Below are positions 58 to 15,305 of a DNA stretch of 45,741 nt, in pieces; positions within the stretch are counted from its first letter, which is position 1; each line of letters starts with the position of its first letter. The notes beneath the pieces were generated by a model. The model was not told the origin of the DNA, did not search any database, and saw only the letters and a list, made by a program, of their open reading frames with translations. A program made the translations under genes and the position numbers. The stretch is taken from the NCBI GenBank assembly GCA_014383445.1, contig JACNHV010000259.1, positions 1 through 45,741 on the forward strand, read 5' to 3'. The stretch is from Candidatus Desulfobacula maris. GTDB taxonomy: Bacteria > Desulfobacterota > Desulfobacteria > Desulfobacterales > Desulfobacteraceae.

Positions 58-738
58 CTATTGTCCCTTTTTTGCATTGTTCAAAATACCCATTGCCCTG
101 GTGGTATTGAAGACTCCGCATACACAGAATTTTGCCATGGTGCGGGTGGCATCTTCTGGATCCATGCGGCCTTCTTTTACATGGGTCAGCATTTTTTTTG
201 CAAAGTTTGCCGAAACCATTCCATGACCGCACATGGTTGAAAGAGACAGGGTTTCCCGGTCCGGGAGCCTGGATGTATCCCCGTGGAATCCAAGGGTATA
301 CTCTACTGCATGGGGAGTGATGTCCACTTCTCCGCAGATATCTCGCACATTGTCTACCAGTGCACTCATATTAATAGAAAGACCCAGATCCAGTTTTTTC
401 ACATCTTGAATGAACTGAGTCACTTTCTTGCGATCATCGAACACTACTGCAGCTGAACCGGAATTGGGGATTTCATCTATGAGTTTTTCATAGGTTATTT
501 TTTCCTGTCTGCCAATAAAGTAAAGTTTAAAGAAACTGAGGTTTTTTTCCGGCCGATAGAGCGAATTGATAAGGCCGTTGCCCATATTTATAGGGTTGTA
601 TTTGATTGCAGCACGCAAAAAAGCTTGTGCTTTTTCAAGAGCCCCTTCTTCATTGAATCCTTTGCCTGCCATGGCAAAAACAATATAATCGTCAGATAAT
701 GTTTCAGGTTTTCCAAACCTGTGCAGCGTATTGGTCAT
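58..738 (-). CDS. Conserved protein of unknown function, partner of the ferredoxin-domain protein
   Basis: This 226-residue soluble protein is not one I can assign to a named family. Its ATG overlaps the stop codon of the upstream gene by one base (TAATG), so the two are probably translationally coupled and work together. The C-terminal third has two cysteine motifs, MCGHGM (about residue 169) and CVCGVFN (about residue 205), that look like metal or Fe-S ligands and are the best candidates for functional residues. There is no signal peptide or membrane segment. An in-frame start 23 codons earlier exists, but it lies inside the upstream gene. The neighbour suggests a redox role (inference only). 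It ends four bases from the 54-bp repeat. Confidence 0.8.
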   Translation of the reverse strand: MTNTLHRFGKPETLSDDYIVFAMAGKGFNEEGALEKAQAFLRAAIKYNPINMGNGLINSLYRPEKNLSFFKLYFIGRQEKITYEKLIDEIPNSGSAAVVFDDRKKVTQFIQDVKKLDLGLSINMSALVDNVRDICGEVDITPHAVEYTLGFHGDTSRLPDRETLSLSTMCGHGMVSANFAKKMLTHVKEGRMDPEDATRTMAKFCVCGVFNTTRAMGILNNAKKGQ

Positions 739-1562: not shown

Positions 1563-1630
1563 AGCCCGCTTCCTTTTAAATATTTTGTTTTTATTGCTAA
1601 TAGTCACTCTGTGTGATGGCGGCAAAAACA

Positions 1631-1640
1631 TTGTATCCAA
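1631..1640. promoter_or_regulatory. Putative GntR operator 1
   Basis: TTGTATCCAA is the reverse complement of the site at 1818-1827; with flanking A/T bases the match is 13 bp. It resembles the TTGTATACAA-type palindromes bound by FCD-domain GntR regulators. It begins four bases downstream of the minus-strand -10 box (TATAAT, 1650-1645), where a bound repressor would block the ferredoxin-protein operon. Confidence 0.6.
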
Positions 1641-1644
1641 AAAT

Positions 1645-1675
1645 ATTATAGAATGCAATATTTAATCCCTGTGAA
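1645..1675 (-). promoter_or_regulatory. Putative promoter of the ferredoxin-protein operon
   Basis: On the minus strand a perfect TATAAT lies at 1650-1645, with TTCACA about 19 bp upstream as a possible -35. The spacing is long, so activity may be weak. The GntR-like site follows the -10 directly. Confidence 0.45.
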
Positions 1676-2597: not shown

Positions 2598-3569
2598 ATG
2601 GAATATAAATTTCTTGGTTCTACAGGGATCAGGGTTTCTCAGCTGTGCATGGGCACGATGACATTTGGAAATGAGGCTGATAAAGTCGAATCTGCAGCCA
2701 TGTATAATCGCTGCCGGGATGTTGGGATTAATTTTTTTGACTGCGCTAATATTTATAGTCAGGGCAAGGCAGAAAAAATTCTGGGAGACCTGATCGCAGG
2801 ATCCAGGGATGAGCTGGTCATAACCAGTAAAGCCTGGGGCCAAATGGGCACGGATATCAATGCAAAAGGTTCATCCCGGCGAAACATTATCGCTTGTGTG
2901 GAAGCAAGTCTCAGGCGACTGAATACTTCTTATATTGATATTTATTTTTTGCATAGATTTGATCCCCACACAGCTCTTGAGGAAACCCTTGCCACACTCG
3001 ATGATTTGGTGACCCAGGGAAAAATACGTTATATTGGAGCAAGCAATTTTGCAGCCTGGCAGGTGGCCAAAGCGCTTGGCGTATCAGCGCTGCATGACTG
3101 GGCCTCATTTAAGTGCATTCAGCCAATGTATAATCTTGTCAAACGCCAGGCAGAGGTGGAAATTCTGCCTCTTGCTCTTTCTGAGAATATTGGTGTGGTC
3201 AGTTATAATCCATTGGGTGGTGGTTTACTGACAGGAAAATATGGTCATAAAATAGAATCCTCCCAGAATCGGCTTGGCAGGGTAGAAATGTATAAAAAAA
3301 GATATGGTGATGACTGGATGCTCGATGCTGCAATGAGGTATGAGGCCTTTGCCCGTGATAATGATATTAATCCGGTAAGTCTTGCAGTGGCCTGGGTTGC
3401 TGCACATCCAGGAGTAACTGCACCGATTCTGGGGGCCAGAAATGTGGGGCAGCTGGAAGACTCGTTACGTTCCATTGAAATCAACATGACGACTGAGTTG
3501 TACCAAAAACTGGCAAGTCTGACACCAGCACCGGCACCAGCCACTGATCGGACGGAAGATTTCAGATAA
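2598..3569 (+). CDS. Aldo/keto reductase
   Basis: A 323-residue TIM-barrel NAD(P)H-dependent oxidoreductase. The full catalytic tetrad is visible: D48 and Y53 (FFDCANIYSQG), K78 (ITSKAW) and H119 (YFLHRFD). The SNFAAWQ segment (about 148) and the C-terminal GARNVGQLEDSL segment are cofactor-side motifs of the family. Length is normal. A GGAGGGG ribosome-binding site precedes the ATG. It follows the GntR gene in the same direction, so it may reduce an aldehyde or ketone made or sensed by that system. The substrate cannot be read from the sequence; members of this clade (YajO/Gre3-like) are often promiscuous. Confidence 0.93.
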   Translation: MEYKFLGSTGIRVSQLCMGTMTFGNEADKVESAAMYNRCRDVGINFFDCANIYSQGKAEKILGDLIAGSRDELVITSKAWGQMGTDINAKGSSRRNIIACVEASLRRLNTSYIDIYFLHRFDPHTALEETLATLDDLVTQGKIRYIGASNFAAWQVAKALGVSALHDWASFKCIQPMYNLVKRQAEVEILPLALSENIGVVSYNPLGGGLLTGKYGHKIESSQNRLGRVEMYKKRYGDDWMLDAAMRYEAFARDNDINPVSLAVAWVAAHPGVTAPILGARNVGQLEDSLRSIEINMTTELYQKLASLTPAPAPATDRTEDFR

Positions 3570-3675
3570 AATTGTTGATGCGATTGTGTACCGCATAAAA
3601 TTTTATCCGGAAAAAGAAAGTTTTTCAGAATTTGTAAAAATGAAATGATAGATATCTGATCAAACCATATCTAAT

Positions 3676-3688
3676 CTGGTACGACCAG
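3676..3688. promoter_or_regulatory. FadR-like operator, upstream site
   Basis: CTGGTACGACCAG is a perfect 5-3-5 palindrome. With the preceding AT it equals the core of the well-known E. coli FadR site ATCTGGTACGACCAGAT. It lies about 265 bp before the CoA-ligase operon and 149 bp (centre to centre) from a second site. A FadR/LldR-subfamily regulator is encoded at 13013-13723. Confidence 0.7.
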
Positions 3689-3791
3689 CCAAAAAGTTGA
3701 ATAGCTATTAAATTAAATACAAAAAATTAATCGGCTAAAGACAATATCAGAATTGTTTTAAAAGAAAGCCAAATTTTCCCCAAAAAACTAT

Positions 3792-3820
3792 TTGACAATA
3801 ATGGTTTGATATGTTTTTAT
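3792..3820 (+). promoter_or_regulatory. Putative promoter of the CoA-ligase/glycolate-oxidase operon
   Basis: TTGACA at 3792-3797 is followed after 17 bp by TTTTAT at 3815-3820. The FadR-like site at 3825-3837 covers the expected start point. This lies in the 372-base gap 3570-3941, which otherwise holds the second operator at 3676-3688, AT-rich sequence and no recognisable gene. The predicted leader is about 115 bases and shows no riboswitch I recognise. Confidence 0.55.
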
Positions 3821-3824
3821 GTAC

Positions 3825-3837
3825 CAGGTCAGACCAG
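3825..3837. promoter_or_regulatory. FadR-like operator, promoter-proximal site
   Basis: CAGGTCAGACCAG (reverse complement CTGGTCTGACCTG) fits the CTGGTnnGACCnG consensus of FadR-type GntR proteins with one arm mismatch. It lies immediately after the proposed -10 box, a repressing position. Confidence 0.65.
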
Positions 3838-3941
3838 ATAGCAACCAGCATATATTGTTTGTCAGGTCTATGGCCAAAGGTAATTTTTCAGTTAAAAGCA
3901 AAACGCTGGGAAAAAAATCAATATTTGGTTATGGAGGATAA

Positions 3942-5198
3942 ATGGCAAAGTTTTTAGAATATCAGGGCAAAGAATTTTTCAAACAGTCCAAGATACCCAT
4001 CCCTGAAGGTATAGTGGCCAATACCCCTGAAGAAGCAAAAGCGGCAGTGCTGAAGCTGGCAAGACCTGTTGTGGTCAAGGCCCAGGTATTTGCCGGAGGC
4101 AGGGGAAAAGCCGGTGGGGTCAAATTTGCTGAAACACCGGAACAGGCGGGAATCCTGGCCCGGGAAATTTTAGGAATGAATATAAAGGGGCTTAAAGTTA
4201 AACAGGTTCTGGTGGAAGAACAACTGGACATTGTCCAGGAATTTTATGCCGGGATTATTATTAATTCTGCCCAGGATGTTCGGGGGCCCGTACTGATGTT
4301 CAGCCCTGAGGGGGGAATGGATATTGAATCTGTATCCCAGGATAAAATTGCAATAATGAATGTGGATGTAATCAAAGGATTAATGCCCTATGATACATTA
4401 AACCTGGTGGCATCAATGGGAATTACTGGCAAGCCTTTGAGGCAGATTGCGGATATAGTATTCAAGCTTTTTAAGATTTTCCAGAAGATGGATTGTCGTA
4501 GTCTTGAGATCAATCCTCTTGTATTAACAACTGATGGCAGGGTGCTGGCTGCAGATTGCCGCATGGCTGTTGATGATCAGGCCCTTTTCAGACACCCTGA
4601 ACTGGGCATTAAAATCGGTCGTGAATTCTTAAAGGAACCCACTGAGTTTGACCTTATTGGCTGGTCATTTGAGGCCAGTGATTTTAGGGGCACAAGTTAT
4701 GTTGCTGAGATGGCAACGCCTGAAGAAGTAGCCCAGGGCGGTTATGTGGGATACCACGGCATTGGCGGCGGTGCTGCCATGATCGGTATGGATGCCCTTA
4801 ACCGGGTGGGACTGAAAATAGCAGATTATGCAGATACCAGTGGGAATCCAACAGCTTCCAAAGTATATAGAACCACCAAGCTGATTATGTCCCAGCCAGG
4901 TATTGAAGCATATTTTCTTGCAGGATTCATGATGGCTAATCAGGAACAATGGCACCATGCCCATGGGGTTGTCAAGGCGTTAAGGGAAGAATTGCCCAAA
5001 AAACCTGCCGGCTTTCCAGTTGTTCTGCTTTTGTGCGGCAACAAAGAAAAAGAATCCCAGGAGATTTTAAAGGAAGGTCTGGCAGATTTGGATGCCAGGA
5101 TAGAAATTTATGATCGGGAGTATGTCTACGATGCCACATTTATTGCCGGCAGAGTCAAGGCGCTGGTCGATGAATACCATGAAAAGTCAGTATCATAG
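3942..5198 (+). CDS. NDP-forming acyl-CoA ligase beta subunit (ATP-grasp), SucC/MtkA/citryl-CoA-synthetase-like
   Basis: A 418-residue protein. An N-terminal ATP-grasp domain (1-~235) has K46, the glycine-rich AGGRGKAGGVK loop (51-61) and EINPL (189-193), the Mg-nucleotide motifs of succinyl-CoA synthetase beta subunits. The C-terminal ligase domain departs from SucC: the stretch ADYADTSGNPTASKVY (294-309) and the AN...HGVVKALRE segment (332-349) resemble ATP-citrate lyase or citryl-CoA synthetase large subunits. It is also ~25-30 residues longer than SucC. GGAGG precedes the ATG. It is first gene of the operon with the 7-Cys protein, alpha subunit and lyase. Malate, citrate or citramalate are all possible acids; malate fits the glycolate-oxidase context best (inference). 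Confidence 0.88.
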   Translation: MAKFLEYQGKEFFKQSKIPIPEGIVANTPEEAKAAVLKLARPVVVKAQVFAGGRGKAGGVKFAETPEQAGILAREILGMNIKGLKVKQVLVEEQLDIVQEFYAGIIINSAQDVRGPVLMFSPEGGMDIESVSQDKIAIMNVDVIKGLMPYDTLNLVASMGITGKPLRQIADIVFKLFKIFQKMDCRSLEINPLVLTTDGRVLAADCRMAVDDQALFRHPELGIKIGREFLKEPTEFDLIGWSFEASDFRGTSYVAEMATPEEVAQGGYVGYHGIGGGAAMIGMDALNRVGLKIADYADTSGNPTASKVYRTTKLIMSQPGIEAYFLAGFMMANQEQWHHAHGVVKALREELPKKPAGFPVVLLLCGNKEKESQEILKEGLADLDARIEIYDREYVYDATFIAGRVKALVDEYHEKSVS

Positions 5199-5211
5199 AA
5201 GGGAGAAACAA

Positions 5212-5496
5212 ATGGAATTTCATGAAAGAACAATAAAAATCATCATTGATGAATCTAAATGTGATGATTGCACAACCCATGCCTGTGTGGAAGCCTGTAA
5301 AACTTTCAGCAGGGGTATTCTGGGTTTGAAAGATGGAAAACCCTTTGTGAAAGACTCTGTTGATGAGCTGGCACGCAAAGGAACAGAATGCCTGGCCTGC
5401 GAATATGCATGCTGGTTCAGGGGGAATAGTGCCATTACCATTGAGGTGCCTATCAAAGGTTTATCCGAATACAGGCAAAGACACGGAACAAATTAG
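5212..5496 (+). CDS. Small 7-Cys (putative Fe-S) protein between the CoA-ligase subunits
   Basis: A 94-residue soluble protein. Cysteines are C17-x2-C20-x4-C25-x3-C29 and C60-x2-C63-x3-C67, a ferredoxin-like arrangement with a longer second gap and one missing ligand in the second set. That would permit one 4Fe-4S cluster, perhaps plus a three-ligand site or a zinc site. The ATG at 5212 has AGGGAG upstream; earlier in-frame Mets lie inside the beta-subunit gene. It is tightly spaced (13 bases after the beta gene, 12 before the alpha gene), so it should be made in stoichiometry with both subunits. I know of no such subunit in characterised succinyl- or malate-CoA ligases. Confidence 0.85.
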   Translation: MEFHERTIKIIIDESKCDDCTTHACVEACKTFSRGILGLKDGKPFVKDSVDELARKGTECLACEYACWFRGNSAITIEVPIKGLSEYRQRHGTN

Positions 5497-5508
5497 CAGG
5501 GGGGAAAA

Positions 5509-6405
5509 ATGTCCATATTATTGGATGAAAATACAAAGGTTGTTGTACAGGGACTGACAGGAAGAGAAGGCTCCCTGCGTTCACAATTTATGAAAGAGTA
5601 TGGTACAAAGGTGGTGGCTGGTGTGACACCAGGTCGCGGAGGCGTTGAGGTCCATGGGATTCCAGTGTTTGATACTATAAAACAAGCCATGGAGAAGGTT
5701 GGAATGATTGATGCCGCAGTTACCTTTATCCCTGGTCCTGCTTTGAAAAGCGCTGTTTATGAAGCCATTGATGCCGGCATTAAATTTGTGGTTTCCCCGG
5801 TGGAGCGTATTCCGATTCAGGATGTTATTGAAATGGTCCATTATGCCTTGAAAAATGATGTAAAACTTTTGGGACCTGGCAGCCTCGGACTGATCAGTCC
5901 GGGCAGAGCCGCCATTGGCTGGCTGGGCGGAAGTTTGGAATGGGCCCGAGCATTGTTTGATTCGGGTCCAGTAGGGGTTATCTCCCGCAGCGGCGGGCAG
6001 TCCGGTACTGTGCCCTGGGCACTCAAGGTAGCAGGGCTTGGTATCAGCACAGCTCTTCACATTGGTACAGAACCCGTATTGGGGATGACCATGGCTGATG
6101 TATTGAAAATGTTTGAAATTGATGACCAGACAAAAGCAGTGGCGATTTTTGGTGAAATCGGTGGAACCCTTGAAGAGGAAGCAGCCGAGTGTGTTGCCAA
6201 GGGCGAGTTTACAAAACCGCTTGTTGTTTTTATTGCAGGTGCCTGGGCACCCGAGGGCATGAGATTTTCCCATGCCAGCAGTATTGTTGAAAAAGGAAGA
6301 GGGACTGCCAAGGGCAAGATGAAAGCCTTGACTGAGGCAGGAGCCCACATCGTGGACAGCCCTGAAAAGATTGCCCCTAAAATTAAAGAACTGATCCAAT
6401 TATAA
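5509..6405 (+). CDS. NDP-forming acyl-CoA ligase alpha subunit, divergent SucD/MtkB-like
   Basis: A 298-residue protein. A CoA-binding Rossmann domain (1-~120; VQGLTGREG, GVTPGRGG) is followed by a ligase domain carrying the phospho-acceptor histidine H255 (RFSHASSIV). Three signatures differ from SucD/MtkB: the usual GPNCPG is GPGSLG (122-127), SRSGT is SRSGGQSG (159-166), and the GIGGDP turn is HIGTEP. The first two resemble the corresponding part of ATP-citrate lyase. This says the enzyme is probably not an ordinary succinyl-CoA synthetase. It ends in a cluster of ATAATTAAA repeats before the lyase gene. It pairs with the beta subunit at 3942-5198 and the 7-Cys protein between them. Confidence 0.88.
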   Translation: MSILLDENTKVVVQGLTGREGSLRSQFMKEYGTKVVAGVTPGRGGVEVHGIPVFDTIKQAMEKVGMIDAAVTFIPGPALKSAVYEAIDAGIKFVVSPVERIPIQDVIEMVHYALKNDVKLLGPGSLGLISPGRAAIGWLGGSLEWARALFDSGPVGVISRSGGQSGTVPWALKVAGLGISTALHIGTEPVLGMTMADVLKMFEIDDQTKAVAIFGEIGGTLEEEAAECVAKGEFTKPLVVFIAGAWAPEGMRFSHASSIVEKGRGTAKGKMKALTEAGAHIVDSPEKIAPKIKELIQL

Positions 6406-6455
6406 TTAAATTGGGTTATAATTAAATCAGGCATAATTAAAAAAGCATAATTAAA
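6402..6455. repeat. Four phased ATAATTAAA repeats in the alpha-subunit/lyase gap
   Basis: ATAATTAAA occurs at 6402-6410, 6418-6426, 6433-6441 and 6447-6455, with spacings of 16, 15 and 14 bases. The first copy contains the alpha-subunit stop codon. The unit is A/T-only and may be replication slippage, or an AU-rich leader that keeps the downstream ribosome-binding site unstructured. Confidence 0.7.
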
Positions 6456-6486
6456 CAACAAATTATATTAAAAGGAGAAAATGATC

Positions 6487-7377
6487 ATGGCAGTTATGAG
6501 ATCTGTATTTTATGTACCAAGCAATAACGAAAAAATGGTTGGCAAGGCCACAAGCATTGAAGCAGACATATTAACCCTGGATCTTGAAGATTCAGTACCT
6601 CCGGCGGAAAAAGCCAGGGGTCGTGAAGAGATCAAAAAATATCTTGATTCAAGCAGAGCGTCACAGAAGGCAAAATATCTCTATGTTCGTGTTAACAACT
6701 GGGAAACAGAGATGACCAATGACGATCTTGAGGCTGTTGTCTATCCTGGTCTTGATGGTGTCTGCCTTGCAAAATGCGGAAGCGGCGAGAATGTAAAACG
6801 TCTGGACTGGAAACTTGAAGAGCTGGAACAGAGAAGGGGTATGAAGGTCGGCTCCGTTGCCATCCAGCTGCTCATTGAAACTGCCAAAGGCGTTATCAAT
6901 GCGTATGAAGCTGCATCTGCAAGCTGCCGGGTCAATTCTCTGATATTTGGTGCAGTGGATTTCACAAAAGACATGAGGGTTACCTTGACCTCTGAAGGCA
7001 AAGAACAGCTTTATGCCCGCTTCCATACTGCCGTGGCCGCCAGAGCAGCTGGATGCGTTGCCATTGATTGTCCTTATGTTGCATTTCAGGATACAGAAGG
7101 GTATAAAAAGAGTACGGAAGAAGGTCGTCAGATGGGATATGAAGGCAGAATGCTGATTCATCCAAGCCAGATCGAACCCTCCCATGAGATTTATACCCCC
7201 TCTGCAGCCAGTATCGAATGGGCGGAAGGCGTAAAAAAAGTATTTGAAGAAGAGGGTATTGCAAAAGGCACAGCCGCAGTTACCTATCTTGGCAAGATGG
7301 TGGATACCCCCGTATATGAAAATGCCATGCAGATTTTAAGAACCATGGAAGAGATTCGTGCTGCCGATGCTAAATAG
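6487..7377 (+). CDS. HpcH/HpaI-family CoA lyase (malyl-CoA / citramalyl-CoA / CitE-type)
   Basis: A 296-residue TIM-barrel lyase. Family motifs are in order: RSVFYVP (5-11), DLEDSVPPAEKAR (32-44), VRVN (67-70), the magnesium ligands E131 (LIETAKG) and D158 (FGAVDFTKDM), and RMLIHPSQI near 226. These enzymes reversibly cleave 3-hydroxyacyl-CoAs to acetyl-CoA or propionyl-CoA plus glyoxylate, pyruvate or oxaloacetate. I prefer ATG 6487 (nine bases after GGAG) to 6481 (three bases). Lying after the CoA ligase and before a glycolate-oxidase-like complex, malyl-CoA (glyoxylate + acetyl-CoA) is the likeliest substrate. CitE-type citryl-CoA lyase remains possible. Its stop codon lies in the repeat element at 7375-7519. 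Confidence 0.9.
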   Translation: MAVMRSVFYVPSNNEKMVGKATSIEADILTLDLEDSVPPAEKARGREEIKKYLDSSRASQKAKYLYVRVNNWETEMTNDDLEAVVYPGLDGVCLAKCGSGENVKRLDWKLEELEQRRGMKVGSVAIQLLIETAKGVINAYEAASASCRVNSLIFGAVDFTKDMRVTLTSEGKEQLYARFHTAVAARAAGCVAIDCPYVAFQDTEGYKKSTEEGRQMGYEGRMLIHPSQIEPSHEIYTPSAASIEWAEGVKKVFEEEGIAKGTAAVTYLGKMVDTPVYENAMQILRTMEEIRAADAK

Positions 7378-7519
7378 TGCCTGGACGAAAACCTGAAAAT
7401 TTTTTTGAGTACAAGGCGGGTGATAATTTTAACCGGAGGAATACATTGAGTATTTCGAGGATTAAAATTTGAATCCAACGCAGTAATCGGGAAAATTGGC
7501 GGTTTTCGGTCGGGCACTA
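7375..7519. repeat. 145-bp MITE/REP-like inverted-repeat element
   Basis: The left end (7375-7393) and right end (7501-7519) are 19-bp inverted arms with 16 matches; the shared core is TAGTGCC...CGAAAACC. The left arm begins at the stop codon of the lyase gene. The interior is non-coding. It occupies most of the first half of the 312-base gap 7378-7689. No second copy was seen in this window. Confidence 0.6.
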
Positions 7520-7549
7520 AATAAGCATTGACCTGTTGATGTTATTGAC

Positions 7550-7591
7550 ATGGGGACCCGGGTTTTTAACCATAATTCCGCGGGTTCCCAT
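7550..7591. other. GC-rich palindrome (hairpin or operator)
   Basis: ATGGGGACCCG (7550-7560) and CGGGTTCCCAT (7581-7591) pair at 10 of 11 positions around a 20-base loop. TTGACA at 7545-7550 abuts the left arm and CATAAT lies at 7571-7576, but their 20-bp spacing is too long for a confident promoter. There is no T-tract, so it is not a classical terminator. It could control the small gene at 7690. Confidence 0.4.
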
Positions 7592-7689
7592 AGTCGGCAA
7601 TCCATTGCAAAATTGTAATGGAAATAAGAGGAAAAAATAAAACCAGGAAATAACAGATTTTTTTTGTGAAATTCTAAAGGGAAGACAAA

Positions 7690-7977
7690 ATGATTCTAGC
7701 ACAATTGTCAGTATATCCAATAGGCGAGGGTACAAGTTTAGGATCCTTTGTAAGAAAAGGAATTCAGGTGATAAAAGATTCAGGGTATACCTATAGTGTT
7801 GGAGGACTCTCTACTGCCATTGAAGTCCCTGACATGGATTCCCTGTTTGCTTTGGTAAAAGAGGTACGCCAGGCCCATCTTGACCAGGGGGCAAAACGTA
7901 TTGTTGTTGATTTGAAAATCGATGACAGAGGGGATAAAGACGCGACGCTTAAGAGCAAAATCAATTCAGTTACTTAG
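7690..7977 (+). CDS. MTH1187/YkoF-type thiamine-binding family protein
   Basis: A 95-residue ferredoxin-fold protein of the MTH1187 (DUF77, Thiamine_BP) family. Matching features are the N-terminal LSVYPIGEGTSLGSFVRKGI strand-helix, a YSVGGLSTAIEV segment, and a C-terminal RIVVDLKIDDR strand. Family members bind thiamine or a related pyrimidine and act as small oligomeric chaperones or carriers. A GGGAAG site precedes the ATG. It stands alone between an inverted-repeat element and a methyltransferase, in the direction of the operon. A link to thiamine diphosphate enzymes such as pyruvate:ferredoxin oxidoreductase, whose remnant lies at 12822, is only speculation. Confidence 0.85.
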   Translation: MILAQLSVYPIGEGTSLGSFVRKGIQVIKDSGYTYSVGGLSTAIEVPDMDSLFALVKEVRQAHLDQGAKRIVVDLKIDDRGDKDATLKSKINSVT

Positions 7978-8078
7978 GCGCTTAATTGCGATTGGGTTTT
8001 ATATAAAACAAGATCTGGCGGATTAATAAAACATAGTTTTACCTCTGTGAAATCCTGACAGGTCTTGTGGGAAAAAAG

Positions 8079-8762
8079 ATGACAACCACTCTTTTTGATA
8101 AATGGACTGACCGATATGATTGCTGGTTTGAAACGCAATGCGGTATTCTCGTTAAGCAGTATGAATCAGAGCTGCTGCTTAAACTTCTAAATCCCCTTTC
8201 CGGGGAAAAAATTCTTGATGTGGGCTGTGGTACCGGGGTTTTCACCATTGATGTGATGGCTCTGGGATCCAGGATTACAGGCATTGATATATCCGAACCC
8301 ATGCTCAGGAAGGCTGTTAATAAAATTGACAAAATTCCCAGATATGCTTTCATCGGTATTTGCGCAGACATGTGTGCGCTGCCCTTTGCAGATAATAGTT
8401 TTGATAAAGTTCTGTCCATGACAGCCATTGAATTTATAGAGGATGCAAACAAGGCTGTTGCCGAGCTTGACCGCGTGACCCGACAGGGAGGGACTATTGT
8501 ATTAACCACTCTGAACAGTCTCAGTCCATGGGCAGAGCAAAGGCGCAAGGCAGCAGAAAACGGGCATGATTTATTTCAAAAAACATTTTTCAGGTCTCCG
8601 GATGATATGCGCTCCCTTATTCCAGCAAATCCTGTTGTGAAAACAGCTATTCATTTTCAAAAGGAAGATTGCCTTTCAGATATTCCTGAAATTGAACGTC
8701 ATGGAAAAAAGAATAATTCTGACAAAGGTGCATTTCTGGCTGTTAAGTGGAAGAAAACTTAA
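8079..8762 (+). CDS. Class I SAM-dependent methyltransferase
   Basis: A 227-residue protein of the Methyltransf_11/UbiE type. Motif I is ILDVGCGTGVFTID (about 45-58), followed by the acidic ITGIDISEPML loop, DMCALPFADNSFD and a TRQGGTIVLTTLN strand. There is no membrane segment. ATG 8079 is chosen (GGGA upstream); GTG 8067 would add four residues. It lies 46 bases before the GlcDE fusion gene in the same direction. The methyl acceptor (quinone, lipid or small molecule) cannot be told from sequence. Confidence 0.88.
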   Translation: MTTTLFDKWTDRYDCWFETQCGILVKQYESELLLKLLNPLSGEKILDVGCGTGVFTIDVMALGSRITGIDISEPMLRKAVNKIDKIPRYAFIGICADMCALPFADNSFDKVLSMTAIEFIEDANKAVAELDRVTRQGGTIVLTTLNSLSPWAEQRRKAAENGHDLFQKTFFRSPDDMRSLIPANPVVKTAIHFQKEDCLSDIPEIERHGKKNNSDKGAFLAVKWKKT

Positions 8763-8807
8763 AGTAAATGCAGGCAAAATAAAAAGTTCTGCTTGTGGGG
8801 GGAAACA

Positions 8808-11459
8808 ATGGTTAATGAAAATTTTATTCGTGAATTGGAAAAAATAGTAGGCAAATCCAATGTGTCAGTGACCAATACGGGTATTGAACTATACTCCTAT
8901 GATGCCTCCCTGGTAAAAGGGAATCCCGGGGTTGTCGTGTTTCCGGCAAATACCCAGGAGGTTTCCCAATTAGTAAAAGCTGCCAATAAAGAGGGAATTG
9001 ATATTGTTCCCCGGGGGTTTGGTACCAATTTATCCGGCGGCACCATCTCTATCACCCACGGCCTTGTGATCTGTCTGTCTCGATTCAATAAGATCCTGGG
9101 TATTCACCCTGAAAGTCGATATGCCGTTGTTCAACCCGGGGTGACCAATCTGGAAGTACAACAGGCCCTGGCAAAGGTTGGTGCCTTTTACGCTCCAGAC
9201 CCGGCCAGCCAGAAAGTGGCCACTCTTGGCGGAAATGCAGGAGAAAATTCAGGAGGCCCTCTTTGTCTGAAATATGGTGTCACCTCCAACCATATCCTGG
9301 GGATGGAAATAGTGATGGCTGATGGCGAAATTCTGAGAATAGGTGGGCCGGCTCTGGATCCTCCCGGGTTTGATCTGCGTGGGCTAATGGTGGGCAGCGA
9401 AGGAGCCATGGCCATTACAACGGAGCTGACTCTGCGTACTTTGCCCAAAACCCAATCAGTTATAACCATGTTAGCTGTTTATGATGATATCCAGGCAGCT
9501 GCCCTTTCTGTTTCAAAAATCATATCAGCTGGAATTCTCCCAAATACCCTTGAAATGATGGATGCCCTGGTAATTGAAGCAGTAGAAGCCAGTATTTCAT
9601 GCGGGTACCCTCTGGACGCGGCGGCTGTGTTGATTATTGAAGTTGAAGGCATGATAGTTGGGCTTAAGGAGCAGGCTGAGCAGATCAAAGAAATCTGTAT
9701 GACCAACCAGTGCCGGGACATCAAGATCGCTAAAAATCAAGAGGAACGAAACCTGTTATGGAAGGGCCGGAAAGGAGCCTTTGGCGCTATTGCCCGCCTG
9801 GCACCGAATTACCTTGTAAATGATGCCACTGTACCTAGAACCAGTCTGCCCAAAGCTCTGGAGCAGATTAAGATAATTGCCCAAAAATATGAATGCCGGG
9901 TTGGTAATGTTTTCCATGCCGGGGATGGTAATATGCACCCTCTTTTATTGTTTGATTCAAGGAATGAAGGAGAATTGGAACAAGTGCACAAGGCTGGATG
10001 GGATATAATGAAAGCCTGTGTTGATCTGGGTGGTACCATATCAGGCGAGCATGGTATTGGCCGGGAAAAACAAGAGGCCATGAAAATGATTTTTTCCGGT
10101 GATGATCTAAATACCCAGCAAACAGTAAAATTTGCCTTTGATCCGGAAAACATATTAAATCCAAATAAGGTGATCCCCCTGTCCAAATCGCCTGGCCGAC
10201 CTTTGGAATCTTTTGAGCCCACAATATTGAAACGGCTGGGTGGGGCATCCTGTAAAGGGGTTGTCCAAGCTATGGCTGCCATTAAAAATGCAAAAGATGC
10301 TGGCAAGTCTGTAATCGTTGTTGGGGCCGACACCTTCAGTCATTACGGCAATATCTGCAAACAGGATGTTACACCTGTCAGCACACTGTCCATGACAGAT
10401 ATCATTGAGTATGACTCTGATAACCAGTTTATCACTCTGGGGGCTGGAATGTCCCTGCATGGACTTCAGGAGATTCTGGGTAAAAATAATCAATGGCTGC
10501 CCCTGCGCCCGCCTTTTTTTGGCAATAAGGCCAGCATGGGTTCTCTGGTCGCCATGGGAATCAGCGGTCCTGAACGTATGTTTTATGGGGCTCCCAGGGA
10601 TTTTTTACTGGGGCTTCAATATATTGACAGCCAGGGTAGAATAATTTCCACGGGAGGCAAGGTGGTTAAAAATGTTGCCGGATATGACATGACCCGGCTT
10701 TTGACCGGAAGCAATGGAAGCCTTGGAATAATTACCGAAGCCACCTGGCGACTCTTAACAAGGCCTGAACTGTGCAAGGCCTTATCCATGACAGGAAACC
10801 TGGATGATTGTTTTGGAGCTGTGCTGGAGCTTATGAATGCCAATCTGTTCCCTGCCTTTGTAACAGCTGTTCCAGTAAATAATATTCCAGAAGATAATGG
10901 TACAGACCAATTCCCAAAACTATGGAAAATGGTCGTGGGTTTTGAAGGCATGGCCAATGTTGTTGAACACCAGGTGGAACAATGCTCCCTTCTATTGGGT
11001 AAACACAAATTAAAGGAATTGGAAACCTGGGATTATCCCTTGATTGACGGGTGTTTTAAAGATATTTTTAATAAAATTGCAATGGCTCCTTATACCTTGA
11101 AACTTGCGACAGCCACTGGAAAGATGCTGGATCTTATCAATGTCATCAATTCTATCGATGGGATCAAGGCCCAGGCAAGGATGTCAGACTGGCTCCTTGA
11201 TTTTGGATGCGGCAGGATATTCAGTGCTCTGGATTCATTGGATAAAGATCAATGGGCTTCTTTGACCCATGGGGCCATATCCCTTGATGGGCATGTGCAC
11301 CTTGAAAAAGCGCCGGATGACTTCAGGCGCGAACAGGATGTTTTCGGAGGAGTTCTACGGCCGGAATGGGCCATGATGCACAAGATCAAAAAGGCCCTGG
11401 ATCCCCATTCATTGTTTGCACCCGGACGTATGCCCGGAAAGAAGGAATATGAGGTTTAA
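8808..11459 (+). CDS. GlcD-GlcE fusion, FAD-dependent glycolate/2-hydroxyacid oxidase
   Basis: An 883-residue fusion of two FAD_binding_4 oxidases. Residues 1-~460 are GlcD-like: PRGFGTNLSGGT (68-79), a GNAGENSGGP segment, and the C-terminal-domain motifs HAGDGNMHP and GEHGIGREK. Residues ~465-883 are GlcE-like; the GGKVVKNVAGYD...LLTGSNGSLG stretch (about 616-640) is a GlcE hallmark. GlcD alone (~470 aa) plus GlcF would suit D-lactate dehydrogenase; adding GlcE points to a GlcDEF glycolate oxidase. Start ATG 8808 follows GGGGGG; TTG 8793 is less likely. GlcF follows after 26 bases. The likely reaction is glycolate to glyoxylate with electrons passing to GlcF and then to quinone or another acceptor (family knowledge plus inference). 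Confidence 0.92.
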   Translation: MVNENFIRELEKIVGKSNVSVTNTGIELYSYDASLVKGNPGVVVFPANTQEVSQLVKAANKEGIDIVPRGFGTNLSGGTISITHGLVICLSRFNKILGIHPESRYAVVQPGVTNLEVQQALAKVGAFYAPDPASQKVATLGGNAGENSGGPLCLKYGVTSNHILGMEIVMADGEILRIGGPALDPPGFDLRGLMVGSEGAMAITTELTLRTLPKTQSVITMLAVYDDIQAAALSVSKIISAGILPNTLEMMDALVIEAVEASISCGYPLDAAAVLIIEVEGMIVGLKEQAEQIKEICMTNQCRDIKIAKNQEERNLLWKGRKGAFGAIARLAPNYLVNDATVPRTSLPKALEQIKIIAQKYECRVGNVFHAGDGNMHPLLLFDSRNEGELEQVHKAGWDIMKACVDLGGTISGEHGIGREKQEAMKMIFSGDDLNTQQTVKFAFDPENILNPNKVIPLSKSPGRPLESFEPTILKRLGGASCKGVVQAMAAIKNAKDAGKSVIVVGADTFSHYGNICKQDVTPVSTLSMTDIIEYDSDNQFITLGAGMSLHGLQEILGKNNQWLPLRPPFFGNKASMGSLVAMGISGPERMFYGAPRDFLLGLQYIDSQGRIISTGGKVVKNVAGYDMTRLLTGSNGSLGIITEATWRLLTRPELCKALSMTGNLDDCFGAVLELMNANLFPAFVTAVPVNNIPEDNGTDQFPKLWKMVVGFEGMANVVEHQVEQCSLLLGKHKLKELETWDYPLIDGCFKDIFNKIAMAPYTLKLATATGKMLDLINVINSIDGIKAQARMSDWLLDFGCGRIFSALDSLDKDQWASLTHGAISLDGHVHLEKAPDDFRREQDVFGGVLRPEWAMMHKIKKALDPHSLFAPGRMPGKKEYEV

Positions 11460-11485
11460 AGCCAGATCAAGGAGAGGTATGGGCT

Positions 11486-12745
11486 ATGAATATTTTTGAA
11501 GATTACGATGCAATTTCCCAATGTAATAAATGCGGTTTCTGCCAGGAGGCCTGCCCAGTATTTCGTTCAACCGGTCATGAGTCCGGTGTTGCCAGGGGAC
11601 GACTGGCATTGATGCGCGGCATTATTGAAGATCGTGTTCAATGGACCAAAGAACTGGAAGATCCTTTGTTTAACTGCCTGGGGTGTGGAGCATGTACTGC
11701 CAGCTGTCTGGCTGATGTTCCCACAGCCGATCTGGTCATTAAGGGCAGGGCAGAGTATCTGGAAAAAGTAGGAAGAAAACCCATCCACAAGCTGTTGTTT
11801 GAACAGCTGCTTCCCTATCCCAAGAGGCTGCACATGGCAGCACGGGCAGCAGCCTTTGGGAAAAATTCAGGTATGTCAAAGGTTGCCAAAGCCCTGGGTC
11901 TCCTCAGGATTCTGGGCAGAGATTTTGCCAAGGCTGAAAATATTGTCGAAAAACTTCCTCCCGTCCCTTTTCGGGGGCTTGTTAAGCCAGGTGAATACCC
12001 AGGCACGGGAGACACTCTTCGCATTGGTTATTTTATAGGCTGCGGGGTTGATGTTATCCAGCAGGAAGCCGGGCAGGAGAGCTTAAAAATACTGAAAAAA
12101 ATTGGTAAAACAGTGACTGTACTTGACAATTGCTGCTGTGGGCTGCCTGCATGGACCTATGGTGATATTGATGCAGCTCAAAAGCTGGCATTGAAAAATC
12201 TTGAAGCCTTTTCATCTCAATCCTTTGACGTAATTGTCACAGATTGCTCAAGCTGCGCCTCGTTTTTAAAGAAATACCCCAAAGTATTTCAAGGCGATGA
12301 AAAAAATCAGGACCTTGCCCAGGCACAGACTCCCCTTTTCCAGGACATGGTGGAATTTATTTTTAAAAATGGATATTCAACTCCAACAGGCAAATCACCC
12401 ATTGTGGTGACCTTTCATGATCCCTGCCATGCAGTTCGCGGCCAGGGAATATCCAGGGAAAACCGGGAAATTTTAAAGAATATTCAAGGAGTTGAATTCA
12501 GAGAGATGCCGGAAGCTGACTGGTGCTGCGGCGGTGCTGGCTCCTACGCATTAACGCACTATGATCTTTCCATGAAGGTGCTGGATCGAAAAATGAAAAA
12601 TGTGGAGTCAACTGAAGCGGATTTTCTGGTGACCTCCTGTCCGGCCTGCATGATTCAGCTTTCCCACGGTATCCGTAGAGCTGGATTAAATACAAAAGTC
12701 TGTCACATCTCTGAGATTGTTACTGGAGCTAAACCCAAAGGATAA
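11486..12745 (+). CDS. glcF: GlcF-type Fe-S subunit of glycolate/2-hydroxyacid oxidase
   Basis: A 419-residue protein. Two ferredoxin motifs lie near the N-terminus, C13-x2-C16-x2-C19-x3-C23 and C64-x2-C67-x2-C70-x3-C74. Two CCG domains follow, with the DNCCCGLP and CSSCASFL pair and then DWCCGGAGSY and CPACMIQL. This is the standard GlcF/LutA/HdrB layout, carrying electrons from the flavin subunit. No membrane helix is predicted, so it is probably peripheral. GGAGAGG lies upstream. It is the last clearly intact gene of the 3942-12745 run. GlcF and D-lactate-dehydrogenase Fe-S subunits are hard to separate by sequence alone; the GlcE fusion next door favours glycolate. Confidence 0.9.
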   Translation: MNIFEDYDAISQCNKCGFCQEACPVFRSTGHESGVARGRLALMRGIIEDRVQWTKELEDPLFNCLGCGACTASCLADVPTADLVIKGRAEYLEKVGRKPIHKLLFEQLLPYPKRLHMAARAAAFGKNSGMSKVAKALGLLRILGRDFAKAENIVEKLPPVPFRGLVKPGEYPGTGDTLRIGYFIGCGVDVIQQEAGQESLKILKKIGKTVTVLDNCCCGLPAWTYGDIDAAQKLALKNLEAFSSQSFDVIVTDCSSCASFLKKYPKVFQGDEKNQDLAQAQTPLFQDMVEFIFKNGYSTPTGKSPIVVTFHDPCHAVRGQGISRENREILKNIQGVEFREMPEADWCCGGAGSYALTHYDLSMKVLDRKMKNVESTEADFLVTSCPACMIQLSHGIRRAGLNTKVCHISEIVTGAKPKG

Positions 12746-12821
12746 TAATATTAATTTATTAAACTATACTACTTGTCATTTTTGATTTTTAAATAATGAT
12801 ATTTTTAAATGAGGTAAATTT

Positions 12822-12947
12822 ATGAAATGGAACATGCAGACAATTGACGGTAATACAGCGGCAACCCATGTGGCATACGGGATGTCTGAAAAATTACATT
12901 CTTTTATTGGACAAAGGATGAATATTTCGATACATAATGCTTTGTAG
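12822..12947 (+). pseudogene. N-terminal remnant of pyruvate:ferredoxin oxidoreductase
   Basis: A 41-codon frame behind GAGGTAAATTT reads MKWNMQTIDGNTAATHVAYG, the characteristic start of pyruvate:ferredoxin (flavodoxin) oxidoreductase (NifJ/Por type). After MSE the similarity ends and a stop follows at 12945. The full enzyme has about 1,170-1,200 residues, so only the first ~23 remain. In Desulfovibrio-type lactate-utilisation loci a complete por gene stands beside glcD/glcF-like and lldGH genes, so the site is where an intact gene would be expected. The ribosome-binding site is intact, so a short leader peptide could still be made. The rest of the gap 12746-13012 holds AT-rich sequence with no gene. 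Confidence 0.8.
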
Positions 12948-13012
12948 CGGTATAAGTTTATCAGAGAATCTTAATTTGAACGATGTAAAAAAAAATTAAA
13001 ATGGTGAAATAA

Positions 13013-13723
13013 ATGAATCATCCCGATTATCAGCCAATTAAACAAGTTAAAATTTCAACTTTGATTGTTGATCAGATAAAAGCTCACATTATTAAGGGCA
13101 ATTTAAACCCTGGAGATCCGCTTCCTTCGGAAAGGGAGCTTATGAGTCTCTTTAATGTGAGTCGGTCCTCATTACGGGAAGCATTGAAAATCCTCGATAC
13201 CATTGGGTTTGTGGAAATCTCCCAGAGAAAACGGACCCGTGTGAAATCCATTGTACCGAAAGGATTTATCGAGCCCATACGCAAGCTTTTAAAAGAGGAC
13301 ATTGACACTGTTCTGGAGGTACATGATGTCAGAAGGTGCCTGGAGTCCTGGAATTCCTATTACGCTGCTGAAAGGGCAACAAAAGAGGATATCGAACTTT
13401 TAAGGCAAAATCTTGAATCCATGGAAGAAGGTATCCCGAAAAAAGTGAGTCTTATAGATGATGATGCAGCATTTCACCTTGCAATATCCAGCGCAGCCCA
13501 CAATAAAATTCAGACCCATTTAATGTATTCCATATACGCTCTTATCCAGAGTACCGTTGGTATCTGCTATGAGGCCAACGAAAGCTGGGATATATTGGAG
13601 GAGCATAGAGCCGTATACCAGGCCATCAAGGATAAAAACCCAGTGCTTGCCCGTGAAAAAATGCACATTCACCTGGATAAGGTTCTGGCTCGAATCCATT
13701 ATTTTTTTGAAAAAAAAACTTAG
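13013..13723 (+). CDS. GntR-family regulator, FadR/LldR subfamily
   Basis: A 236-residue protein. The wHTH (about 14-80) contains LPSERELMSLFNVSRSSLREALKIL, very close to the FadR/LldR/PdhR recognition helix. The FCD domain carries the usual metal-site pattern: D/H in DDDAAFHLAI, H in SSAAHNKI, and H in EEHRAVYQ. Members bind TGGTnnnACCA-type palindromes and respond to lactate, pyruvate, glycolate or acyl-CoA. The two CTGGTnnGACC(A/T)G sites before the CoA-ligase operon are therefore its most likely targets. No such site is seen upstream of its own gene. The ribosome-binding site (GGTGA) is weak. It precedes the transporter and lut genes. Confidence 0.92.
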   Translation: MNHPDYQPIKQVKISTLIVDQIKAHIIKGNLNPGDPLPSERELMSLFNVSRSSLREALKILDTIGFVEISQRKRTRVKSIVPKGFIEPIRKLLKEDIDTVLEVHDVRRCLESWNSYYAAERATKEDIELLRQNLESMEEGIPKKVSLIDDDAAFHLAISSAAHNKIQTHLMYSIYALIQSTVGICYEANESWDILEEHRAVYQAIKDKNPVLAREKMHIHLDKVLARIHYFFEKKT

Positions 13724-13764: not shown

Positions 13765-14673
13765 ATGTATCTTCAGGTTCTGAAGATCTTTATTGATATT
13801 GTCACACCCGTATTTTTTCTGATCTTTCTGGGGTATTATGTCGGCCCCCGTCTGGAACTGGATGCCAGAACATTGTCCAGGACAGCCTATTTTCTTTTGA
13901 TACCCTGTTTTGTGTTTGATATCATCAGCAAGGTAGATATTGATATTGCAGTGGCAGGCCAGATGATCCTGTATACTACATTGACCCATATATTAGTGGC
14001 AGTGGCTGCTTTTATCCTGGCCAAACTCCTGAAACGTTCCAGGGAAGTGACAGCTGCCTTTGTTATTATCGCCACCTTCGGGAATGTGGGAAATCTGGGG
14101 CTTTCCCTTATTGACTTCAGGCTGGGTCAGGCTGCCCAGACATCTGCCACCATCTATTTCATAACTATTGTGCTGCTATCCTTTGTGGTCTGCGTGGGGA
14201 TTTCAAGCTGGACCCGGGGAACGGGTTTGTCAGCTGTGTTGTCCGTATTTAAAACACCGGCCCTGATTGCCATGGTGCCGGCCATGTTTTTCTATGGCAC
14301 TGATTTTGAGCCTCCACTGTTTTTATCCAGGATCACGGGACTTTTAGGCAGGGCTATGATCCCCGTGATGCTGGTAACCCTGGGGGTTCAATTATCAAAT
14401 CTGGCTAAATTCAATTTCAGCCTTGATTTAGTCATAGCTTCTTGTCTGAGGCTTATCGCAGCCCCTCTTATTGCCTTTGGATTGAGCTTTGTTTTTTCTC
14501 TGTCTGGCATGGAAATTCGTTCAGGAATTCTTCAGGCCGGTATGCCTGTGGCAGTTCTGGGATCCATTATTGCCATTGAATATAATATCAGGCCAAAATT
14601 TGTTACAACAGCCGTATTATTCACTACAGTGCTGAGCCTTGTAACATTGACTATTCTACTTTATATGGTATAA
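13765..14673 (+). CDS. AEC-family (auxin efflux carrier-type) transporter
   Basis: A 302-residue polytopic inner-membrane protein with about ten hydrophobic segments in two five-helix halves, the AEC/Mem_trans layout. Conserved-looking features are the polar break FGNVGNLGLSL near residue 108 and the C-terminal GMPVAVLGSIIAIEYN segment. Bacterial relatives carry malate, malonate, lactate or other carboxylates. AGGAAAGG precedes the ATG. It lies between the GntR regulator and lutC, so uptake of glycolate, lactate or a related hydroxyacid is the obvious role (inference). Direction of transport is not visible from sequence. Confidence 0.9.
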   Translation: MYLQVLKIFIDIVTPVFFLIFLGYYVGPRLELDARTLSRTAYFLLIPCFVFDIISKVDIDIAVAGQMILYTTLTHILVAVAAFILAKLLKRSREVTAAFVIIATFGNVGNLGLSLIDFRLGQAAQTSATIYFITIVLLSFVVCVGISSWTRGTGLSAVLSVFKTPALIAMVPAMFFYGTDFEPPLFLSRITGLLGRAMIPVMLVTLGVQLSNLAKFNFSLDLVIASCLRLIAAPLIAFGLSFVFSLSGMEIRSGILQAGMPVAVLGSIIAIEYNIRPKFVTTAVLFTTVLSLVTLTILLYMV

Positions 14674-14744
14674 CGAAGGATAATCCTATAGCAGCTTAAG
14701 CTTTGAAGCCCAGGGATAAAACTATTTTTTATAGGGAACATGGA

Positions 14745-15305
14745 ATGGAAAAAAAAAATTTAATCCAGATAATGACAGAAAAGGCTGTTGCCGTGGGAAC
14801 CATTGTCCATGAAATATCTTCGGTTTCCGACGCTCTTCAGTATGCTGTTGACCTGAACAAAGAGAAAAATTTGAAAACCCTGGCATGCCCGGGCCTGGAT
14901 TCTGAAGACCAGGACAGGCTGCTGGATCTGTGTAATTCAGCAAACCTGGATCTATTGGAGGAGCCACTGCGAAATCAGGCCTCTTCCATAGACACTTCAC
15001 TCACATGGGTTAATTACGGCATTGCTGACACAGGCACCCTGATGCTGGCATCTGATTCTGAAGAAATCCGCATTGCCACCATGCTGGCCAAGATCCATAT
15101 TGCCATGTTGCCCGTATCAAAAATAAGGCTGGACACAGGATCTATTGAAGCTGCGCTCAATGATATCCTGAAAAAAGATTCTGCCTCCTACACTGCATTT
15201 ATTACGGGCCCCAGCCGAACGGCTGATATTGAACGGGTGCTGGCCATCGGAGTCCACGGCCCTGTTGAGCTTCATCTACTCTTGATAAAGGATATGCAGC
15301 CATGA
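14745..15305 (+). CDS. lutC: LutC/LldG-family (LUD domain) protein
   Basis: A 186-residue LUD (DUF162) protein. The diagnostic C-terminal stretch is present: NYGIADTGTLML, then AKIHIAMLPVSKI and TGPSRTADIERVLAIGVHGP. LutC works with LutA and LutB in quinone-linked L-lactate oxidation. ATG 14745 is preferred (AGGGAAC upstream); TTG 14703 would add 14 atypical residues. Its TGA overlaps the next ATG by four bases (ATGA), indicating translational coupling with the LutB-LutA fusion. A length near 190 residues is normal for the short form. Confidence 0.93.
   Translation: MEKKNLIQIMTEKAVAVGTIVHEISSVSDALQYAVDLNKEKNLKTLACPGLDSEDQDRLLDLCNSANLDLLEEPLRNQASSIDTSLTWVNYGIADTGTLMLASDSEEIRIATMLAKIHIAMLPVSKIRLDTGSIEAALNDILKKDSASYTAFITGPSRTADIERVLAIGVHGPVELHLLLIKDMQP

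Follow-up and report, generated by a model that had tools for sequence, protein, structure and literature searches.

Putative malate-CoA ligase genes with a ferredoxin-like partner in a candidate glycolate oxidation gene run of Candidatus Desulfobacula maris

Described malyl-CoA systems and the gene run

Glycolate is converted anaerobically via the malyl-CoA pathway by D. glycolicus, S. glycolicus, Moorella sp. HUC22-1, M. thermoacetica and a Lachnospiraceae strain (PMC6313629, available portion), and for S. glycolicus physiology and enzyme data led to the proposal that glyoxylate is converted via malyl-CoA (PMC8092247, available portion). In these sources the pathway is known as physiology and enzyme activities. 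We analysed a 45,741-bp stretch of DNA from Candidatus Desulfobacula maris (contig JACNHV010000259.1, positions 1 to 45,741 of the forward strand, hereafter the window), which is contig 372 of the 4.85-Mb assembly GCA_014383445.1. A run of eight genes at 3942-12745 probably encodes, as judged from families and conserved residues, a malate-CoA ligase and a malyl-CoA lyase of anaerobic glycolate oxidation together with a new partner protein; its enzyme set and its hosts agree with the pathway of S. glycolicus, D. glycolicus and Moorella. Among the literature matches listed, with subscription papers mostly outside the search, we found no ligase gene assigned to the malyl-CoA glycolate pathway, and the words 'malyl', 'malate' and 'ligase' are absent from the main text of the S. 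glycolicus genome paper (PMC3156405) in its available portion. Within the literature searched, what appears to be new is the assignment of genes and the partner protein; the chemistry of the pathway is long established.

The gene order given in an earlier sequence-only reading of the window held: all eight reading frames are open on the + strand and their domains were matched.

3942..5198, + strand: BETA, 418 residues, SucC-like ATP-grasp subunit of a putative malate-CoA ligase (PF08442, 186 bits)
5212..5496, + strand: CYS7, 94 residues, ferredoxin-like 7-Cys protein, putative third ligase subunit
5509..6405, + strand: ALPHA, 298 residues, SucD-like CoA-binding/phosphohistidine ligase subunit (PF02629, PF00549)
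6481..7377, + strand: LYASE, 298 residues, HpcH/HpaI (CitE-like) C-C lyase, putative malyl-CoA lyase (PF03328, 152.9 bits)
7690..7977, + strand: Thiamine_BP-type small protein (PF01910, 84.1 bits)
8079..8762, + strand: S-adenosylmethionine-dependent methyltransferase (PF08241, 85.7 bits); GTG at 8067 is a possible start
8808..11459, + strand: GlcDE, a GlcD-GlcE fusion, FAD subunits of glycolate dehydrogenase (two FAD_binding_4 stretches and FAD-oxidase_C); TTG at 8793 is a possible start
11486..12745, + strand: GlcF-type iron-sulphur subunit (two CCG stretches and Fer4_8; PF02754, PF13183)

By family and residues the run comprises a glycolate dehydrogenase, a malyl-CoA-type lyase and an ADP-linked ligase, that is the gene set of the pathway. 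We consider it quite likely that it forms the ATP-yielding entry of anaerobic glycolate oxidation via malyl-CoA. GlcDE and GlcF would oxidise glycolate to glyoxylate and deliver the electrons to the membrane, LYASE would condense glyoxylate with acetyl-CoA to malyl-CoA, and BETA-ALPHA with CYS7 as partner would convert malyl-CoA, ADP and inorganic phosphate to malate, CoA and ATP through a phosphohistidine. A malic enzyme and a pyruvate:ferredoxin oxidoreductase (PFOR) encoded elsewhere in the genome would return malate to acetyl-CoA, closing the cycle. We infer every reaction, its direction, and each cluster and cluster function from what was observed: gene order, conservation, intact catalytic residues, the linked genes for malic enzyme, PFOR and GlcDEF-type proteins, and hosts that are documented glycolate oxidisers.

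MtkAB, the malate-CoA ligase of the serine cycle, shares with BETA-ALPHA the superfamily, the split into alpha and beta subunits, the phosphohistidine, the expected substrate malate and a CoA ester lyase gene nearby. However, plasmid matches annotated as malate-CoA ligase are ~29-33% identical to BETA, MtkA groups with E. coli SucC apart from the BETA proteins of the BETA-CYS7-ALPHA-LYASE block (the cassette), the substrate loops differ, and the two MtkAB genes abut in three loci, leaving no room for a 7-Cys gene. SucCD has the same domain set and catalytic residues, but the cassette proteins score under its cut-offs, their loops are replaced, an extra gene lies between the subunits and they form their own clade. 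CcsAB with citryl-CoA lyase likewise pairs a ligase with a lyase, BETA scores 157 bits against its large subunit (6hxq_B), and the paralogous ligase of locus L051 adjoins a citryl-CoA lyase; the cassette lyase is nevertheless of the HpcH/HpaI type, whereas citryl-CoA lyase is of the citrate synthase type. The malyl-CoA lyase (MCL) of the serine and ethylmalonyl-CoA pathways is identical to LYASE at seven catalytic positions, but LYASE lacks the MCL-specific insertion, carries Met instead of an MCL Trp and belongs to a separate clade. The PDB matches to CcsAB were one large and one small subunit only; to our knowledge CcsAB has no third subunit, and we know of no iron-sulphur partner for SucCD, MtkAB or CcsAB.

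The ligase, its 7-Cys partner and the lyase

The best curated matches of BETA and ALPHA were SucC and SucD, both sub-threshold: BETA scored 245.7 against the SucC model TIGR01016 (cut-off 375.55) and ALPHA 281.3 against the SucD model TIGR01019 (cut-off 353.2). Against the model for MtkA, the beta subunit of malate-CoA ligase, BETA reached 174 (cut-off 604). In a BETA tree of 84 rows, which carries a long-branch warning, above all for CcsA, the 68 cassette rows and the paralogues from loci L050 and L051 formed one clade (100/100, branch 1.13). SucC and MtkA group elsewhere, MtkA beside E. coli SucC at a fork that is not among the starred ones (98/79). CcsA lies outside the cassette clade, on a branch of 2.57 that makes its placement unsafe, and pairs with a SucC-like row below the cut-off (L209) next to that clade. 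The closest named rows to the window BETA come from a 'Proteobacteria' bin without further classification (L052), a Desulfobacula bin (L053) and Desulfospira joergensenii (L057). The suggestion of the sequence-only reading that the ligase looks unlike known malate-CoA ligases is thus borne out by scores far under the MtkA and SucC cut-offs and by the separate clade.

In the alignment the catalytic Glu (Glu197 of E. coli SucC) is kept in 68/68 cassette BETA rows, and the phosphohistidine and its partner Glu of ALPHA are each kept in 71/71, so that the cassette ligase has the phosphohistidine and two facing glutamates of an NDP-forming acyl-CoA synthetase. The loops, which we take to face the substrate, are different. 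The SucC loop NIFGG is replaced by GFMMANQEQWHHAH in the window BETA, and relative to E. coli the ALPHA loops change from GPNCPG to GPGSLG and from SRSGTLTYE to SRSGGQSGT; in the alignment these differences hold against SucCD and MtkAB alike. On sequence evidence the ligase is a clade of its own, apart from SucC and MtkA, with the catalytic residues kept and the putative substrate loops replaced. Membership in MtkAB was ruled out by score and tree position, and membership in SucCD by the scores, the tree, the loops and second SucC copies in the same genomes.

CYS7 gave no Pfam, NCBIfam or PDB sequence match at the search thresholds, and a PDB profile search returned two matches at chance level. 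Weak Fer4-type matches (E up to 1) occurred in most of 47 CYS7 members, with the window member under all cut-offs. The AlphaFold model of CYS7 had a predicted local distance difference test (pLDDT) of 88.7 and a predicted template modelling score (pTM) of 0.74, two of the five models being poor (59.5 and 50.2). Foldseek returned nothing at an E of 0.001 or below for this model; the non-significant matches were for the most part ferredoxin folds of small iron-sulphur proteins, together with the archaeal RNA polymerase D subunit, and included HgcB and a [3Fe-4S] ferredoxin. The seven Cys residues from which the protein takes its name are real, with the pattern CxxCx4CxxxC followed by (G)xxCxxCxxxC keeping the spacing of seven Cys and one Gly in 80/80 relatives; as one of the two search peptides held C60 and C63, the independent test of conservation is that of the other five Cys. 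Compared with a 2x[4Fe-4S] ferredoxin CYS7 has seven instead of eight Cys, with Gly in the eighth place in all 80. Since this Gly stands for the first Cys of the second motif, the site would hold a [3Fe-4S] or an open-site [4Fe-4S] cluster.

In the L051 paralogue Cys replaces that Gly, and the resulting 8-Cys domain is fused to the end of BETA, which argues, from one case, that CYS7 is a ligase subunit. Most likely CYS7 is a small ferredoxin-like ligase subunit with one or two predicted iron-sulphur clusters; that it exerts redox control is a guess. Alternatively, CYS7 might carry electrons for GlcDEF or PFOR as a free protein, or help in structure or assembly, and not be a subunit that affects catalysis. 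Its ferredoxin-like model and the sub-threshold Foldseek matches to RNA polymerase D, HgcB and [3Fe-4S] ferredoxin are consistent with such a role, but the gene lies between the ligase genes, 13 and 12 bp away from them, holds this position across phyla, also in loci without GlcDEF-type genes, and is fused to BETA in L051. We therefore regard this alternative as possible but doubtful, and it would leave the rest of the proposed pathway intact.

The seven catalytic positions of malyl-CoA lyase (list from PMC3832036, available portion), D42, E44, D45, R76, E141, D168 and D299 in MCLR numbering, are kept in 74/74 cassette LYASE rows. E. coli CitE and 1sgj carry the same residues, so the subgroups are not told apart by them. 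A Pro of MCL is likewise kept in 74/74 cassette lyases and is Val in E. coli CitE and 1sgj, although the L050 paralogue also has Pro. In the lyase tree the 74 cassette lyases (99/96) stand apart from MCL (100/100) and from CitE. LYASE scored 191.8 against the CitE model (cut-off 443.4) and 79 bits against the haloarchaeal malyl-CoA lyase model (cut-off 500), and membership in CitE or RipC was ruled out by the cut-offs. None of the eight genes of the run encodes a citD or citF partner; the genome was not searched for these.

Gene order across genomes and links to malate

We scanned named species genomes with a 16-row CYS7 alignment, obtained 112 relatives and mapped the best 80. BETA lies directly 5' of CYS7 in 76/80 loci, the other four having <500 bp upstream, and LYASE lies directly 3' of ALPHA in 76/80; of the four loci lacking it, one breaks off immediately, while the downstream sequence without LYASE amounts to 3.3 kb in another and to ~9 kb in the remaining two. 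As the loci were picked on CYS7 alone, block order held in 76/80 indicates more than chance. Same-strand GlcD/E/F-type genes, defined by blastp matches >90 bits to GlcD, GlcE or GlcF references and possibly including lactate dehydrogenases, adjoin the block in 47/80 loci (41 downstream and 6 upstream, no overlap). A malic enzyme gene is present in 14/80, and one or the other in 54/80; where the downstream sequence reaches 4 kb or more (56 loci), these genes are found in 39 (GlcD/E/F-type) and 45 (either). PFOR occurs beside the block in 8/80 loci, malate dehydrogenase in 1/80, and relatives of the Thiamine_BP-type and methyltransferase genes downstream of it in 13/80 and 14/80, respectively. 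A formyltransferase-like gene (PF00551 and PF02911, below the fmt cut-off; e.g. L042 12120-13046, L032 6946-7854) was seen in 24/80 loci, often between lyase and glcD.

As controls we mapped 12 loci of other SucC-type genes, with ~10 kb on either side and less for six. Nine of them, of which seven score above the TIGR01016 cut-off, come from D. glycolicus, D. joergensenii and two genomes each of Moorella and Desulfosporosinus; two are SucC pieces of the window genome, and one is from E. coli. CYS7, LYASE, GlcD/E/F-type genes and malic enzyme were seen in none of these 12.

CYS7 was found in 5/145 relatives and in 18/297 genomes across the phylum, the window genome being counted in both, and several genomes of the same genus do not have it, indicating an accessory trait. 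Its hosts include Desulfofustis glycolicus DSM 9705, Desulfospira joergensenii, Syntrophaceae, Desulfosporosinus, Candidatus Dichloromethanomonas elyunquensis RM (strain RM), Moorella mulderi, M. stamsii, M. sulfitireducens, Dehalococcoidia, a Thermoleophilia bin and a Nitrososphaeria bin. It occurs in 46/82 genomes of strain RM's class and in 9/11 of the genus of M. mulderi. The order BETA-CYS7-ALPHA-LYASE recurs in Desulfobacterota, Bacillota, Chloroflexota bins and archaeal bins; as the hosts are mostly metagenome bins, single odd taxa could be binning errors. Blocks in archaeal, Chloroflexota, Thermoleophilia and Thiobacillaceae bins (L105, L088, L091, L122, L127) suggest either cross-phylum transfer or such errors.

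Where a malic enzyme gene accompanies the block it starts 69-235 bp 3' of LYASE in 13/14 loci, and 5.2 kb further in D. joergensenii. In Bacillota it is the gene 3' of LYASE (PF00390 and PF03949 in L094, L119, L125, L188 and L223), with Pfam-confirmed examples in M. mulderi, strain RM, a Desulfosporosinus, S. glycolicus and M. thermoacetica, and it was next in 10/10 stretches taken from among the 46 genomes of strain RM's class that carry CYS7 (L126 and L196 being one locus). In both S. glycolicus and M. thermoacetica DSM 521 BETA-CYS7-ALPHA-LYASE is followed by malic enzyme, and in D. glycolicus DSM 9705 the block is followed by a GlcDE fusion, GlcF and, behind these, PFOR. In a deltaproteobacterial bin (L032, same contig as L063) the run reads BETA, CYS7, ALPHA, LYASE, formyltransferase-like gene, Thiamine_BP, malate dehydrogenase, PFOR and GlcD, with malate dehydrogenase (TIGR01763, 473.6 bits) and PFOR (TIGR02176, 1956 bits) over their cut-offs. 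The chain from glycolate via glyoxylate to malate with ATP synthesis, proposed in the sequence-only reading, gains support as a prediction both from this linkage to malic enzyme, to malate dehydrogenase with PFOR and to GlcD/E/F-type genes and from the finding that D. glycolicus, S. glycolicus and M. thermoacetica carry the block.

We checked six genomes, those of the window, D. glycolicus, D. joergensenii, M. mulderi, strain RM and S. glycolicus. PFOR was over the cut-off in 6/6 and a malic enzyme domain was present in 6/6, while malate synthase was found in 0/6 with a control search positive in 6/14 known genomes; glyoxylate carboligase was over the cut-off in 1/6, D. glycolicus. In the window genome the route from malate to acetyl-CoA is represented by a malic enzyme domain on contig 53 and a full PFOR on contig 3. 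The window itself retains a trace of another PFOR gene. The sister locus L049 has a whole PFOR gene (1172 residues) 3' of glcF, of whose codons the window keeps the first 23; the two sequences rejoin 11 bp before the PFOR end, ~3.4 kb having been deleted from the window.

12822..12890, + strand: PFOR relic, first 23 codons, 22/23 residues identical to the L049 PFOR
13013..13723, + strand: GntR-type regulator, so named from blastp labels of homologues that adjoin the block in many relatives

The gaps within the run are, from 5' to 3', 13, 12, 75-78 (depending on the start), 312, 101, 45 and 26 bp. The CYS7 reading frame is listed from 5110, overlapping BETA, and the start at 5212 is favoured by the relatives. 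The 312-bp gap 3' of LYASE leaves space for a second promoter, so a single transcript is putative. Promoter and terminator matches in 3500-13100 were no commoner than in shuffled sequences (21 versus a mean of 18.5, and 9 versus 11.4), making the scan uninformative on operon limits, and an Rfam search of the window gave no match. The GntR-type regulator possibly controls the run or the lactate genes 3' of it: at 13765-17455 an AEC-type membrane-transport gene is followed by LutC-like and LUD/Fer4/CCG lactate-utilisation-type genes. Elsewhere in the window a Pfam-less protein adjoins a Fer4 protein at 58-1658 (- strand), a pair kept in L029/L053 at 85%, and a glycerate-kinase-type (DUF4147/MOFRL) gene lies beside a LarA-type gene at 21355-24033 (- strand). 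In D. glycolicus TRAP transporter genes diverge from the block (L054 4235-7704, - strand), a possible route of glycolate uptake.

Substrate, direction and meaning

GlcDE scored 597.7 against TIGR00387 glcD, over the cut-off of 567.9, and lay below the cut-offs of the E. coli-type GlcD model NF008408 (504.7, cut-off 897) and the GlcE model NF008439 (231.9, cut-off 284). GlcF reached 148.7 against NF008434 (cut-off 333), its best NCBIfam match being LdhH at 264.5 (cut-off 800).

Several observations weigh against reading the run as the malyl-CoA entry of glycolate oxidation. With GlcE and GlcF under the curated cut-offs, the substrate of the oxidase is not fixed by family. In the lyase the MCL Trp is replaced by Met in 74/74 cassette rows, and in place of the MCL-specific insertion after strand 6 the window lyase has 15 residues, compared with 28 in 4l9y (MCLR 172-199). 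Malate dehydrogenase TIGR01763 was over the cut-off in 0/6 genomes, so that malic enzyme must carry the malate step. Neither a same-strand GlcD/E/F-type gene nor malic enzyme is present in 26/80 loci, in some because the contig is short; 22 of these 26 also have no opposite-strand upstream GlcD/E/F-type gene, and 10 of the 22 have at least 6.7 kb downstream. Finally, strain RM (L119) has the block and malic enzyme despite a reported other route for glyoxylate: on dichloroacetate its glyoxylate carboligase was up by log2 8-9, a glycerate route was proposed, and the strain was stated to be without canonical malyl-CoA lyase genes (PMC8092247, available portion), in whose main text the words succinyl, malic and citrate lyase are absent. 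Either the block serves another condition in strain RM or the malyl-CoA reading is wrong for that host.

The same enzymes could run in reverse for assimilation, turning malate, ATP and CoA into malyl-CoA and then into acetyl-CoA and glyoxylate. MtkAB and CoA ester lyase chemistry proceeds in this direction in the serine cycle, and in three annotated plasmids their genes lie among serine-cycle-type genes, with aminotransferase and glycerate dehydrogenase as neighbours in all three and glyA in one; moreover, the lyase reactions are reversible (PMC3832036, available portion). The neighbours of the block, in contrast, are glycolate-dehydrogenase-type and malate-oxidising genes, with the relatives not searched for serine-cycle genes, and we consider the reverse direction improbable.

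A different substrate was weighed as well. GlcD-type enzymes include D-lactate dehydrogenases, and if the window enzyme oxidised lactate, LYASE might use the resulting pyruvate to make citramalyl-CoA, from which the ligase would release citramalate. The sub-cut-off preference of GlcF for a lactate dehydrogenase model, the lactate-utilisation-type genes at 14703-17455 and the Met near the substrate in all 74 lyases, which could widen the pocket, would agree with this. A malic enzyme or malate dehydrogenase gene next to the block, however, has no part in such a scheme, several hosts are documented glycolate oxidisers, and the pocket Pro of MCL is retained where E. coli CitE and 1sgj have Val, a distinction tempered by the Pro of the L050 paralogue; a citramalate pathway is thus quite improbable. 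That BETA-ALPHA is an ordinary succinate-CoA ligase placed here by chance is very improbable, for although SucC and SucD are its best curated matches, the catalytic residues are common to both and strain RM, with the cassette BETA as its sole SucC match, escapes the second-copy argument, the scores lie well under the cut-offs, the loops are replaced, the clade is separate at 100/100, and another SucC is over the cut-off in 6/8 genomes searched, the window genome carrying two pieces of another SucC outside this contig, one of which scores 370 bits. One contig of the window genome (L212) combines a piece resembling SucC with another HpcH/HpaI gene.

Two loci hold paralogous systems. L051 (211-7252) reads FrdA, FrdB, FumB, FumA, the BETA:CYS7 fusion, ALPHA and citryl-CoA lyase; its ligase may use citrate or succinate, and a reductive citric-acid-cycle run with an iron-sulphur ligase is possible. 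L050 (1768-8116) reads MmgE, BETA, CYS7, ALPHA, CitE-like lyase and MmgE, beyond which lie Liv-type transporter and amidohydrolase genes. When 395 genomes were searched with the L051 8-Cys domain, 24 places matched at E below 1e-9, comprising L051 itself, the L050 paralogue, 20 malyl-type blocks and two more (G606, G551); of 24 weaker places one was fetched (L260) and had no such ligase nearby. We tentatively raise, as a joint claim that we hold to be speculative, a new acyl-CoA synthetase branch: a three-subunit iron-sulphur ligase whose partner C-C lyase can be exchanged (a malyl-CoA lyase in the window, a citryl-CoA lyase in L051, another CitE-type lyase between MmgE genes in L050), which would have gained malate as substrate independently of MtkAB and whose cluster would couple ATP formation to how reduced the ferredoxin pool or the membrane electron chain is.

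An iron-sulphur partner of a succinyl-CoA-synthetase-type ligase would be unexpected, and the block bears on the statement that strain RM is without malyl-CoA lyase. Algae and photorespiration release large amounts of glycolate as waste. As a marker, the block would let genomes and metagenomes be scored for anaerobic glycolate oxidation, a trait predicted in Desulfobacula-type bacteria, Syntrophaceae, Desulfosporosinus, Chloroflexota bins and archaeal bins.

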